A stretch of DNA of 64,000 bases from Amycolatopsis cihanbeyliensis. GTDB taxonomy: Bacteria; Actinomycetota; Actinomycetes; Mycobacteriales; Pseudonocardiaceae. The DNA lies in the NCBI RefSeq assembly GCF_006715045.1, contig NZ_VFML01000001.1:4618501-4682500 (forward strand), given 5' to 3'. The notes below the pieces were generated by a model. The model had not been told where the DNA came from and did not search any database. It saw only the letters and a program-made list of their open reading frames with translations. Made by a program: the position numbers and the translations under genes. Positions 37,311 through 59,726 of this stretch are shown here, one piece after another (within the stretch, counting starts at the first letter, position 1; every line of letters starts with the position of its first letter).

Positions 37311-37353
37311 GAACCGGGCGGGGGATCCGCGGCTCGCCCGTCCCCGTTCCTAC
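37307..37353. terminator. Bidirectional hairpin overlapping two stop codons
   Basis: GTAGGAAC (37307-37314) pairs with GTTCCTAC (37346-37353), and CGGGCG (37315-37320) pairs with CGCCCG (37335-37340) across a 5-base bulge. It spans the stops of the lipoprotein and the MerR gene. Confidence 0.55.
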
Positions 37354-38102
37354 AGCCGCCGCCCGGCGTAGGCGGCCATCGCCTCGCGCAGGTACGCGGC
37401 CAGGCCCGGCGCGGTCTCGTCGATGTTGGCGGTGAACCGCTCGTCATCGACGTACAGCTGACCGAGACCGGTGTAGGACTCGCGATCCGGCGTCCAGAAG
37501 TGGCAGATCCACCGGTAGTGCGCGTCGGTGGCCTCGATCGTGCGCGGGTCGTCGGCGGGCACGCCGTCCCGCATCAACTCGGCGAGCTCGGCCGATGCCG
37601 CGGCACCCTCCCGCTGCACGGCCTCCCACTTCTCCGCTGACCAACCCTTGACCCGCTCGTGCGATTCGCGCGCGCCGCTGCCCCAGCGCCGCTCCGCCTC
37701 CTGGGCGTGGCGTTCGGCCTGTTCGGAGTCCCTGGCGAAGCCCCGGTACAGATTTTCCGCGTTCATGTCCTTCCCTCCTTCCAGCTTCTCGATGGTGTGC
37801 CGCACGGTCGTGGCGAGCCGGTCGAACCGGTCCCGCTCGGCCAGCAACCACTCGTGGTGCAGCCGGAGCGCGTCCAGCTGGTCGGTCTGCCGGTCGAGGA
37901 CGTCTCCGATCGTGTCCAGCCCGAGCCCGAGCTCCCGCAACACCCGGATCTGCTGCAGGCGCAGCAACTGCTCCCGCTCGTAGTAGCGGTAACCGTTGCC
38001 ACCGATATGGGCCGGCCTGAGCAGGCCGATCTCGTCGTAGTGCCGCAACGTCCTCGACGTCACCTTGGCCATTCGCGCGACCTGCACGATCGAGTAAGCC
38101 AT
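37350..38102 (-). CDS. MerR-family regulator with TipAS-type ligand domain
   Basis: 250 residues. Residues 1-70 form the MerR winged helix (IVQVARMAKVTSRTLRHYDE, IGLLRPAHIGGNGYRYYE), then the dimer coiled coil to ~110. The C-terminal ~130 residues (NAENLYRGFARDSEQAERHA, ATDAHYRWICHFWTPDRESY, AAYLREAMAAY) match the TipAS antibiotic-recognition domain. In Streptomyces TipAL this domain traps thiopeptides and activates the promoter. Its own promoter has the MerR layout (38147-38177), so autoregulation is likely. SD GGAGG. The target genes are unknown. Confidence 0.9.
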   Translation of the reverse strand: MAYSIVQVARMAKVTSRTLRHYDEIGLLRPAHIGGNGYRYYEREQLLRLQQIRVLRELGLGLDTIGDVLDRQTDQLDALRLHHEWLLAERDRFDRLATTVRHTIEKLEGGKDMNAENLYRGFARDSEQAERHAQEAERRWGSGARESHERVKGWSAEKWEAVQREGAAASAELAELMRDGVPADDPRTIEATDAHYRWICHFWTPDRESYTGLGQLYVDDERFTANIDETAPGLAAYLREAMAAYAGRRL

Positions 38103-57211: not shown

Positions 57212-57739
57212 ATGCCGATGTTTTCCTTCGAGGGCGTCAGCCCCACCGTGCACCCGGACGCCTGGATCGCGCCGACGGCGACGCTGGTCGGCGACGTCGT
57301 CGTGGAGAAGGGCGCATCCATCTGGTACGGAGCCGTGCTCAGGGCCGACTTCGGCCGCATCGTGGTCCGGGAGGGCGCCAACGTCCAGGACAACTCGGTG
57401 GTGCACGTGAACGCGGGCAACGAGACCGAGATCGGCAAGAACGCCACCGTCGGCCACCAGTGCCTCGTGCACGACTGCACGGTGGGGGAGCAGGCACTGA
57501 TCGGCAACGGTTCCACGGTGCTGGACCAGGCCGAGATCGGCACCCGAGCGCTGGTCGCGGCCGGTGCCACGGTGACCCCGAACCTGGTGGTTCCGGCGGA
57601 ACACATCGCCATGGGCAGCCCGGCGAAGAAGCACGTGCCGCTGACCGACTCGGCCCGGGTGTGGGTGGAGCACAACGCCGCCGTCTACCAGCAACTCGCC
57701 AGGCGCCATGCCGAGGGGATCGAGCCGGTCGGCGACTGA
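57212..57739 (+). CDS. Gamma-class carbonic anhydrase-like protein
   Basis: 175 residues of left-handed beta-helix: hexapeptide repeats such as ATLVGDVVVEKGASIWYGAV. Zinc ligands are in NVQDNSVVHV, ATVGHQCLVHDC (three His of the gamma-CA site). The C-terminal helix (SARVWVEHNAAVYQQLARRH) packs on the trimer. It would hydrate CO2 or, as in many actinomycete relatives, have undefined activity. It is placed 24 bp or so upstream of the L11-paralogue promoter. Confidence 0.88.
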   Translation: MPMFSFEGVSPTVHPDAWIAPTATLVGDVVVEKGASIWYGAVLRADFGRIVVREGANVQDNSVVHVNAGNETEIGKNATVGHQCLVHDCTVGEQALIGNGSTVLDQAEIGTRALVAAGATVTPNLVVPAEHIAMGSPAKKHVPLTDSARVWVEHNAAVYQQLARRHAEGIEPVGD

Positions 57740-57754
57740 GCCGGACTTTTCGAG

Positions 57755-57785
57755 TTGAGTCTCCAGTAGCTGGAGACCTTAGCGT
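57755..57785 (+). promoter_or_regulatory. MerR-type promoter of the L11 paralogue
   Basis: TTGAGT (57755-57760) and TAGCGT (57780-57785) are 19 bp apart. The dyad GTCTCCAG-TAG-CTGGAGAC (57759-57777) fills the spacer. A long spacer with a centred dyad is the layout of promoters activated by MerR-family proteins. The dyad differs from that of the tipA-like gene at 38157-38171. Confidence 0.75.
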
Positions 57786-57825
57786 TCCCGGTCGTCACGT
57801 AGATGGGACGACCGAAGGGGACGCC

Positions 57826-58323
57826 GTGTCACCGAACAAGCCACCGAGCCAACAACCGAGCCAACAACCCAACAAGCCACCGAAGAAGGCCAGGAAGCTC
57901 AGCTTCCAGGCCACGCTGGAACTCACCGCCGGGGACGCGCCGGTGGTGGATCTCGGCAAGATGCTCGGCCAGACCGGGGTGAACCTGGTCGAGGTCAAGC
58001 GGGCCTACGACGCCGCGACCGCGAACCAGCGTGGTGACGTCGTCCCGGCCGTGGTCTCGGTGTTCGAGGACCGTTCGTTCGACCTGCGCCTGAAGACCCC
58101 GCCGACCGCGTTCCTCATCCGCAAGGCGCTGGGTGGCAGGGGTTCCTCCCGGCCGGGGCACGAGGGCGCGGGGACGTTGAGCGCGGAGCAACTGCGGGAG
58201 ATCGCCGAGCGCAAGCTGCCCGACCTGAACACCGGCGACCTGGACGCGGCGATGCGGACCATCGCGGGTACGGCGCGGTCGATGGGCGTCACGGTGCAGC
58301 CACCGGCGCCGCGGGTGCACTAG
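57826..58323 (+). CDS. Divergent ribosomal protein L11 paralogue
   Basis: 165 residues. A hydrophilic, Gln/Pro/Lys-rich N-terminus (~25 residues, SQQPSQQPNKPPKK) precedes an L11-type N-domain (SFQATLELTAGDAPV, LGQTGVNLVEVKRAYD, PAVVSVFEDRSFDLRLKT, PPTAFLIRKALG) and the L11 C-domain (LREIAERKLPDLNTGD, RTIAGTARSMGVTV). The canonical PPVGPALGQ turn reads VVDLGKMLGQ, so the two prolines that contact thiopeptides are lost. It stands apart from the usual rplK-rplA locus. GTG start after AAGGGG. It probably substitutes L11 or binds a regulatory site; see findings. Confidence 0.85.
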   Translation: MSPNKPPSQQPSQQPNKPPKKARKLSFQATLELTAGDAPVVDLGKMLGQTGVNLVEVKRAYDAATANQRGDVVPAVVSVFEDRSFDLRLKTPPTAFLIRKALGGRGSSRPGHEGAGTLSAEQLREIAERKLPDLNTGDLDAAMRTIAGTARSMGVTVQPPAPRVH

Positions 58324-58328
58324 GATCG

Positions 58329-58412
58329 AGGTCGTCCGAGCGACTGGCGCCGCCTGAGGTGGAGCACCACCGGGGAGCTTTCGATCGGCAGGCACCGCGC
58401 GCCTGGGTGTCC
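58329..58412 (+). ncRNA. ZTP (pfl) riboswitch
   Basis: The conserved words of the pfl RNA appear in order: GACTGGCGC (58342-58350), then ACCACCGGGGAGC and CGCCTGGGT (58400-58408). This RNA senses ZTP/ZMP (AICAR monophosphate), the alarm signal for low 10-formyl-tetrahydrofolate, and commonly controls folate and glyA genes. It begins only a few bases past the stop of the L11 paralogue and ends 45 bp before the glyA ATG. Confidence 0.85.
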
Positions 58413-58421
58413 CGCCGCGAG

Positions 58422-58457: not shown

Positions 58458-59726
58458 ATGACGCACCAGCCAGGTATGTCCGCACTGACCGCCGCCGACC
58501 CGGAGATCGCCGGTCTCGTCGAGCGGGAGGCACGTCGCCAGCACGACAAGATCCGGCTGATCGCCTCGGAGAACTACGTATCCGAGGCGGTGCTCGAGGC
58601 CACCGGGACCGTACTGACCAACAAGTACTCCGAGGGCTACCCCGGCCGGCGCTACTACGAGGGCCAGCAGGTCATCGACCAGGTGGAACGGCTGGCCGTG
58701 CAGCGGGCGAAGGCGCTGTTCGGGGCCGAGCACGCCAACGTCCAGCCGTACTCCGGCTCGCCGGCGAACCTGGCGGCGTACCTGGCCTTCGCCAAGCCGG
58801 GGGACACCGTGCTCGGGATGGCGCTGCCGGACGGCGGGCACCTGACGCACGGCTGGAGCGTCTCGGCGACCGGCAAGTGGTTCGACCCGGTCCGGTACGG
58901 CGTCCGCAAGGAGACCGGCCGGGTCGACCTCGACCAGGTCCGCGACCTGGCCCGGCGGCACCGGCCGACGTTGATCTTCGCGGGTGGCACCGCCATCCCG
59001 CGCACCATCGACTTCCCCGCTTTCGCCGAGATCGCCCGCGAGGTGGGGGCGGTGCTGGTGGCCGATATCGCGCATATCGCGGGCCTGGTAGCGGGTGGGG
59101 CGCATCCCTCGCCGGTCGGGTACGCCCCGGTGATCACCACCACCACGCACAAGACGCTGCGTGGCCCGCGTGGCGCGATGATCCTGGCCGACGCCGAGCA
59201 CGGCAAGGCCATCGACAAGGCGGTGTTCCCCGGACTGCAGGGCGGGCCGCACAACCACACCACCGCGGCGATCGCGGTGGCGCTGGGCGAGGCGGCCACC
59301 CCGGAGTTCCGGGACTACGCGCATGCCGTGGTCGACAACGCGAGGGCGCTGGCCGAGGCGCTGCTGGAGCGCGGTTTCGACCTGGTGTCCGGCGGCACCG
59401 ACAACCACCTGCTGCTGGTCGACCTCACCGGTAAGGGGATCGGCGGCAAGCCCGCGGCCCAGGCGCTGGACCGGGCGGGTGTCGAGCTGAACTACAACAC
59501 CGTCCCGTTCGACCCGCGCAAGCCCTTCGATCCCTCCGGAATCCGGCTGGGTACCTCCTCCATCACCACCCGTGGCCTGCGGCCGGAGCACCAGCCGCGG
59601 CTGGCGGAGTGGATCGACCGCGCGGTCACCGCCGCGGCGAGCGGGGATGAGCAGGCCCTCGAGCGGATCGCCGCCGAGGTCCATGAGTTGCTGGCCGCCT
59701 ACCCCATGCCCGGCTACCGCGCGTAA
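58458..59726 (+). CDS. glyA: Serine hydroxymethyltransferase
   Basis: 422 residues of PLP fold type I: IRLIASENYVSEAVLEATG, NKYSEGYPGRRYYEGQQVID, and the PLP Lys in TTTTHKTLRGPRGAM. It converts Ser and tetrahydrofolate to Gly and methylene-THF, the main source of one-carbon units. The GlyA His in SVSATGKW region and the quinone-loop residues follow the usual order. ATG 58458 has AGGAG 7 bases upstream; the upstream frame belongs to the riboswitch. It converges with ppa (4 bp apart). Confidence 0.96.
   Translation: MTHQPGMSALTAADPEIAGLVEREARRQHDKIRLIASENYVSEAVLEATGTVLTNKYSEGYPGRRYYEGQQVIDQVERLAVQRAKALFGAEHANVQPYSGSPANLAAYLAFAKPGDTVLGMALPDGGHLTHGWSVSATGKWFDPVRYGVRKETGRVDLDQVRDLARRHRPTLIFAGGTAIPRTIDFPAFAEIAREVGAVLVADIAHIAGLVAGGAHPSPVGYAPVITTTTHKTLRGPRGAMILADAEHGKAIDKAVFPGLQGGPHNHTTAAIAVALGEAATPEFRDYAHAVVDNARALAEALLERGFDLVSGGTDNHLLLVDLTGKGIGGKPAAQALDRAGVELNYNTVPFDPRKPFDPSGIRLGTSSITTRGLRPEHQPRLAEWIDRAVTAAASGDEQALERIAAEVHELLAAYPMPGYRA

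Follow-up and report, generated by a model that had tools for sequence, protein, structure and literature searches.

Why should an actinomycete that carries an ordinary gene for ribosomal protein uL11 also hold a second, strongly diverged one? The second gene, here called L11-2, lies in a 64,000-nucleotide stretch of Amycolatopsis cihanbeyliensis DNA (the window), in which an earlier note had placed it from the letters alone and at the right position. The coordinates of L11-2 and of the features around it are collected in Table 1. Its reading frame is open upstream as far as 57124; we chose the GTG at 57826 as the start because homologs start nearby and AAGGGGA precedes it. As the note had said, both L11 domains are recognizable, scoring above the Pfam cut-offs (PF03946, 45.4 bits against 32.9; PF00298, 87.9 against 21.4), the terminal GTARSMG is intact, and the protein is far from the canonical sequence, with 53% identity to the canonical copy of the same genome. 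L11-2 reached 127.2 with the NCBI L11_bact equivalog model TIGR01632, under the cut-off of 141.85, whereas the canonical protein was accepted with 200.4. L11-2 thus carries both Pfam domains of bacterial uL11 but neither the equivalog score nor the nusG/rplA locus. The Gln/Pro-rich extension also described in the note is present in L11-2 but is not a family trait: besides the aligned members listed in Table 1, the nearest relative, from A. aidingensis P0002 (95% identical, the best among the matches listed), starts MSPNKQPKK and is without the PSQQ repeats. The predicted structure model of L11-2 had a pLDDT of 77.

Table 1. Features of the window that bear on L11-2
Feature	Position	Strand	Details
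TipA-like MerR gene	37350..38102	-	HTH and TipAS domain (TipAS 118.6 bits); 20 kb from L11-2
Gamma-carbonic-anhydrase-like gene (name presumed)	57212..57739	+	upstream neighbor; homolog in 30/47 loci compared, window included
MerR-type promoter	57755..57785	+	-35 TTGAGT (57755-57760), 19-bp spacer, -10 TAGCGT (57780-57785)
Operator	57759..57777	.	perfect inverted repeat GTCTCCAG-TAG-CTGGAGAC
Leader hairpin	57789..57814	+	8-bp arms; follows the promoter, ahead of the start codon
L11-2, second uL11 gene	57826..58323	+	165 aa; GTG start 57826, stop 58321-58323
N-terminal extension of L11-2	57829..57891	+	Gln/Pro/Lys-rich; absent from 18 other family members aligned
Altered thiopeptide-contact turn	57940..57972	+	codons for PVVDLGKMLGQ; D42, K45 at canonical P26, P29; one residue shorter
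ZTP (ZMP/ZTP) riboswitch before glyA	58330..58415	+	46.7 bits; context outside the system
glyA (name presumed)	58459-59726		downstream gene

A profile search of the 7.4-Mb window genome gave two PF00298 matches. The other one, whose turn reads ANPAPPVGPALGQ, is an ordinary rplK flanked by nusG and rplA; a canonical rplK beside rplA, for which the note had proposed to search, is therefore present elsewhere in the genome, and L11-2 is not its sole L11 gene. In one further genome (G087, locus L100), an L11-2-type protein stood alone among the matches listed, with the canonical L11 absent. The search itself probably accounts for this absence: the L11 searches miss genes, and in 4 of 150 genomes (one of the same genus) no L11 match at all was listed. 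Annotated rplK was also seen in eleven plasmid records of Clostridioides difficile, 97 to 150 kb in size.

In an alignment, the turn of L11-2 is GDAPVVDLGKMLGQ where the canonical copy has GAANPAPPVGPALGQ. When 57 L11-2 rows were compared with 26 canonical rows, canonical P26 was replaced by D or E, P29 by K, C42 by K, and N46 by D in all 57; we take canonical P26 and P29 to be P23 and P26 in E. coli numbering. The L11-2 turn was one residue shorter, with M, V, or I at canonical P23 and a gap at P25, and F41 in helix 2 was V, L, or I. The 100% proline of the canonical rows is in part a product of selection, four of an initial 30 (L066, L068, L073, and L304) having been removed for divergent turns; L260 and L098 were removed from the L11-2 set. 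Among the four canonical rows removed, L304 (positions 1085-1552, genome G081) is the sole L11 among the matches listed for its genome and lies in the canonical nusG-rplK-rplA place; its turn, ANPASVGQALGPHG, does not have the usual prolines. PPVGPALG was absent from all matches listed (120 of 7956) in a protein search with L11-2. The change is not private to the window copy, a possibility that the note had named as refuting its reading: the close relatives carry the altered turn as well. The claim that the turn prolines are lost needs one qualification. In Amycolatopsis-type members, P39 is still present directly ahead of the altered stretch and matches canonical P23 or N22 depending on the alignment (P23 in an alternative one), and one turn proline may therefore be kept in these proteins. 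T-P-P, GTAR-MG, and further C-terminal positions are the same in L11-2 and canonical rows; judged from this alignment, the predicted C-terminal rRNA-binding core is kept. According to excerpts of PMC5960728, thiostrepton sits between helices 43/44 and the N-terminal domain of uL11 and stacks its thiazoles on the turn prolines, and changes of prolines in the turn lead to thiostrepton resistance.

Members of the L11-2 clade were found in Pseudonocardiaceae, Micromonosporaceae, and Streptosporangiales. When named genomes were scanned, at least 137 relatives were returned, and 80 loci were kept from them; 46 (L003 to L048) were treated as L11-2 and 34 were less alike. The 46 came from Amycolatopsis, Prauserella, Actinophytocola, Kutzneria, Saccharothrix, and their kin, and also from Dactylosporangium, Nonomuraea, and Thermoactinospora. 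A second L11 copy was present in at least 50 of 79 same-genus relatives. The copy of T. rubra was matched at E 1e-41 in at least 79 of 250 genomes of the D. sucinum family, and in 8 of 249 genomes of its own order (T. rubra included); a class-wide draw of 394 genomes gave one match besides the window genome at E 1e-44. Every copy read had the altered turn (30 of the 79 in the D. sucinum family and all 8 in the T. rubra order). The 57 usable actinomycete L11-2 rows formed one clade in an 89-row tree (support 100/99, stem 1.22), the separate grouping of relatives that the note had suggested looking for. Two Bacillaceae L11s were its sister (95/94), and TclQ of pBac115 fell outside. L260, which had been wrongly extracted, sat on a branch of 3.16, and L098 was left out.

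In the window, L11-2 stands between the gamma-carbonic-anhydrase-like gene and the ZTP riboswitch that precedes glyA, and glyA-type ORFs were present in up to 36 of the 47 loci compared. No thiopeptide genes were found among the window neighbors read within about 3 kb of L11-2. Three genomes counted as L11-2 negative retain remnants: an in-frame loss of 43 codons at the L11-2 locus (G030), a truncated gene (G071), and a vestige (G022). Given these remnants and the conserved locus, L11-2 is old at this position and was lost on several occasions; it is useful but dispensable.

How is such a gene switched on? The sequence upstream of L11-2 reads TTGAGT-CTCCAGTAGCTGGAG-ACCT-TAGCGT, with a palindrome within the 19-bp spacer, which is the layout of MerR-activated promoters. 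For counting, the promoter was defined without the letters of the palindrome (TTG[AC], a 15-mer with at least 5 or at least 4 of 6 paired arm positions, and TA....T), a definition fixed after the sites were known. It picked out a site before 34 of the 46 L11-2 genes with at least 5 pairs and before 41 with at least 4, compared with 0 of 1,115,130 other positions in the same loci. A looser score placed the promoter before 22 of 39 additional loci (four of which duplicate genes already among the 46). The other 17 (L239 to L244 and L246 to L256) encode one Micromonosporaceae protein type, and their start codon is preceded instead by a conserved 5' leader, GGTTGTCGTGCG ... GTGCAGCACACACTAAGGAGC. 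In the whole window genome, the operator pattern at up to 2 mismatches gave a single site, that of L11-2.

In 11 of 16 genomes of Amycolatopsis and its kin, a second operator site was found 16.8 to 25.1 kb from L11-2 on the other strand, and the gene following each of the eight second sites read encodes a MerR protein of about 315 aa. The orthologue in the window genome (C1:4693135-4694061) is preceded by CTCCACCGACTGGAG, with one arm base different. In two genomes of the T. rubra order (G893 and G935), a gene of the same MerR family adjoins L11-2 divergently, and each has its own operator copy; any MerR gene in the flanks was seen at 4 of 91 loci scanned, 39 of which had flanks of about 1.5 kb only. 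The presence of the MerR gene was itself uninformative: at least 76 of 79 same-genus relatives have a match, whether or not they carry L11-2, and co-occurrence was therefore set aside. The case for this regulator rests instead on the common operator and the divergent pairs, and on these grounds we consider it very likely that the 315-aa MerR protein controls L11-2. By sequence and fold comparison (the fold matches coming from one aligner alone), its C terminus is weakly TipAS-like. The operator was also kept before the MerR gene in the 24 L11-2-negative genomes read (of 29); loci L177, L184, and L185, two of them from L11-2 genomes, gave no row in this reading. In four genomes read (L187, L188, L208, and L210), the same operator precedes another gene, the L208 copy of which belongs to DUF2268, a predicted Zn-dependent protease in Pfam. 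Because the operator is kept before the MerR gene where L11-2 is missing and also stands before the DUF2268 gene, the MerR regulon would extend beyond L11-2.

The TipA-like gene within the window had been the first candidate for the regulator. It was dropped, and is probably not the direct regulator, because this gene and L11-2 have different operators. The operator of the TipA-like gene, TTGACGTAGCGTCAA, looks autoregulatory, and its class recurs before relatives of the gene in many genomes. A second TipAS gene is also present in the window genome. TipAS genes do not track L11-2: they were found in 15 of 21 and 0 of 10 L11-2 genomes, compared with 33 of 40 genomes without it. In some genomes, the L11-2 operator is similar to the operators of TipAL genes, with near agreement in G080 and T. 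rubra, or of stand-alone TipAS genes. Two Bacillaceae L11 genes (L066:1710-3043 and L073:5974-6411) lie away from rplA and have changed turns and MerR-like promoters; one of the two is followed by a TipAL gene, which gives the TipAL-L11 pair of Amphibacillus.

Since a weakly TipAS-like MerR gene and, in some other genomes, TipAL/TipAS genes carry this operator too, the predicted regulation of L11-2 points independently to antibiotic sensing. The suggestion of the earlier note, a stand-in L11 that keeps ribosomes working under thiopeptides, is thereby partly supported, by the second copy, the clade-wide altered turn, and a promoter of an antibiotic-sensing type. From the altered turn, the kept core, the promoter, and the common operator, all read in the DNA, we infer the steps that would turn them into resistance. 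A thiopeptide or similar drug would bind the 315-aa-type MerR protein, which would then untwist the 19-bp-spaced promoter and turn on L11-2. On new or exchanging ribosomes, L11-2 would replace L11 on helices 43/44 of 23S rRNA, the uL11-rRNA cleft would no longer hold the drug, and translation would continue. Some genomes would also have stand-alone TipAS under this switch, to mop up the drug. Taken as a whole chain, including induction, ribosome entry, and resistance, we favor with reasonable confidence the view that L11-2 is a thiopeptide-inducible, resistance-adapted stand-in uL11. The broader proposal leans only slightly toward probable: that many actinomycetes keep a sensor-driven ribosome swap apart from thiopeptide clusters, in which TipAL or a TipAS-like MerR drives a stand-in uL11 (in some genomes together with a TipAS sponge), and that a related arrangement exists in Bacillaceae.

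Other readings of the same evidence have to be weighed. The MerR protein might sense a different ligand, and L11-2 might shield the GTPase center against an agent other than a classical thiopeptide. Consistent with this, the effector domain is weakly TipAS-like, excerpts of PMC7762955 describe TipA-class proteins as active against diverse antibiotics, TipAS genes are no more frequent in L11-2 genomes, and the window neighbors of L11-2 are not thiopeptide genes; the changed residues, however, are those on which thiopeptide thiazoles stack (excerpts of PMC5960728). We regard this alternative as unlikely. A second one turns on the stringent factor Rel, whose activation needs the same region of uL11, as known from relC biology. 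If L11-2 were induced in translation stress, it could make ribosomes unable to activate Rel, with resistance a side effect. The factor-serving domain does include the altered turn and the changes in helix 2 (F41 to V/L/I, C42 to K, and N46 to D), and the MerR operator also precedes the DUF2268 gene, which has no obvious ribosomal role, but the operators common with TipAL/TipAS genes and the Amphibacillus pair favor thiopeptides over starvation, and we consider this explanation unlikely as well. Far less probable is an extra-ribosomal role, in which L11-2 would bind free rRNA, another RNA, or a drug as a decoy or regulator and never enter active ribosomes: the subthreshold equivalog score and the long stem branch would suit it, but the kept rRNA-binding core, including GTAR-MG, would not be expected for a purely extra-ribosomal use. 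That L11-2 is a dispensable duplicate without a special job and on its way out is scarcely credible, since the substitutions fixed in 57 rows and the promoter conserved across families suggest long-term selection, despite its presence in just those 50 or more of 79 relatives and its loss or decay in some Amycolatopsis (G030, G071, and G022).

If the inducible stand-in reading is right, an antibiotic sensor would alter the composition of the ribosome itself, a case of inducible target replacement by a ribosomal protein, and TipA-type sensing would gain a concrete resistance output. Thiopeptide tolerance would be predicted in well over a hundred genomes of this survey. L11-2 would also offer a natural experiment on the role of the uL11 proline turn for translation factors and the stringent response.

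Several known systems come close. Compared with canonical uL11 (rplK), L11-2 has the same two domains and RNA-binding core, and differs in its turn and locus. The L11 paralogs TclQ and TclT of thiocillin and micrococcin P1 producers are presumed, in excerpts of PMC12724294 and PMC10704990, to replace L11 and confer thiopeptide immunity, and the micrococcin cluster also holds a putative MerR gene, tclU. Like them, L11-2 is a second L11 with changed turn prolines besides a canonical copy. However, TclQ lies inside a biosynthetic cluster, whereas the neighbors of L11-2 in the window and in most near relatives are housekeeping genes; the TclQ turn, APPVGTALGP, has one proline changed (P to T), whereas L11-2 is without the PPVGP prolines; TclQ of pBac115 is no member of the 57-row clade; and for L11-2 a candidate regulator is named by a common operator. 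TipAL/TipAS of Streptomyces resembles the system in its MerR-type activation and TipAS domains. The candidate regulator in Amycolatopsis, in contrast, is another MerR protein with a merely TipAS-like C terminus. The excerpts of PMC7762955 state that several genes, tipA included, are activated by TipAL and mention no ribosomal protein target. Among the papers listed in literature searches, mostly outside subscription journals, none described a second L11 under MerR or TipA control outside producer clusters. The paralogs used under zinc limitation are ribosomal proteins different from uL11, and their signal is zinc. They are alike in being condition-dependent paralogs of ribosomal proteins (excerpts of PMC5912738). 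Known kinds thus lie near on each side, namely the TclQ immunity L11, the TipAL/TipAS sensor, and the zinc-limitation ribosomal proteins, and among the papers listed none joined them.
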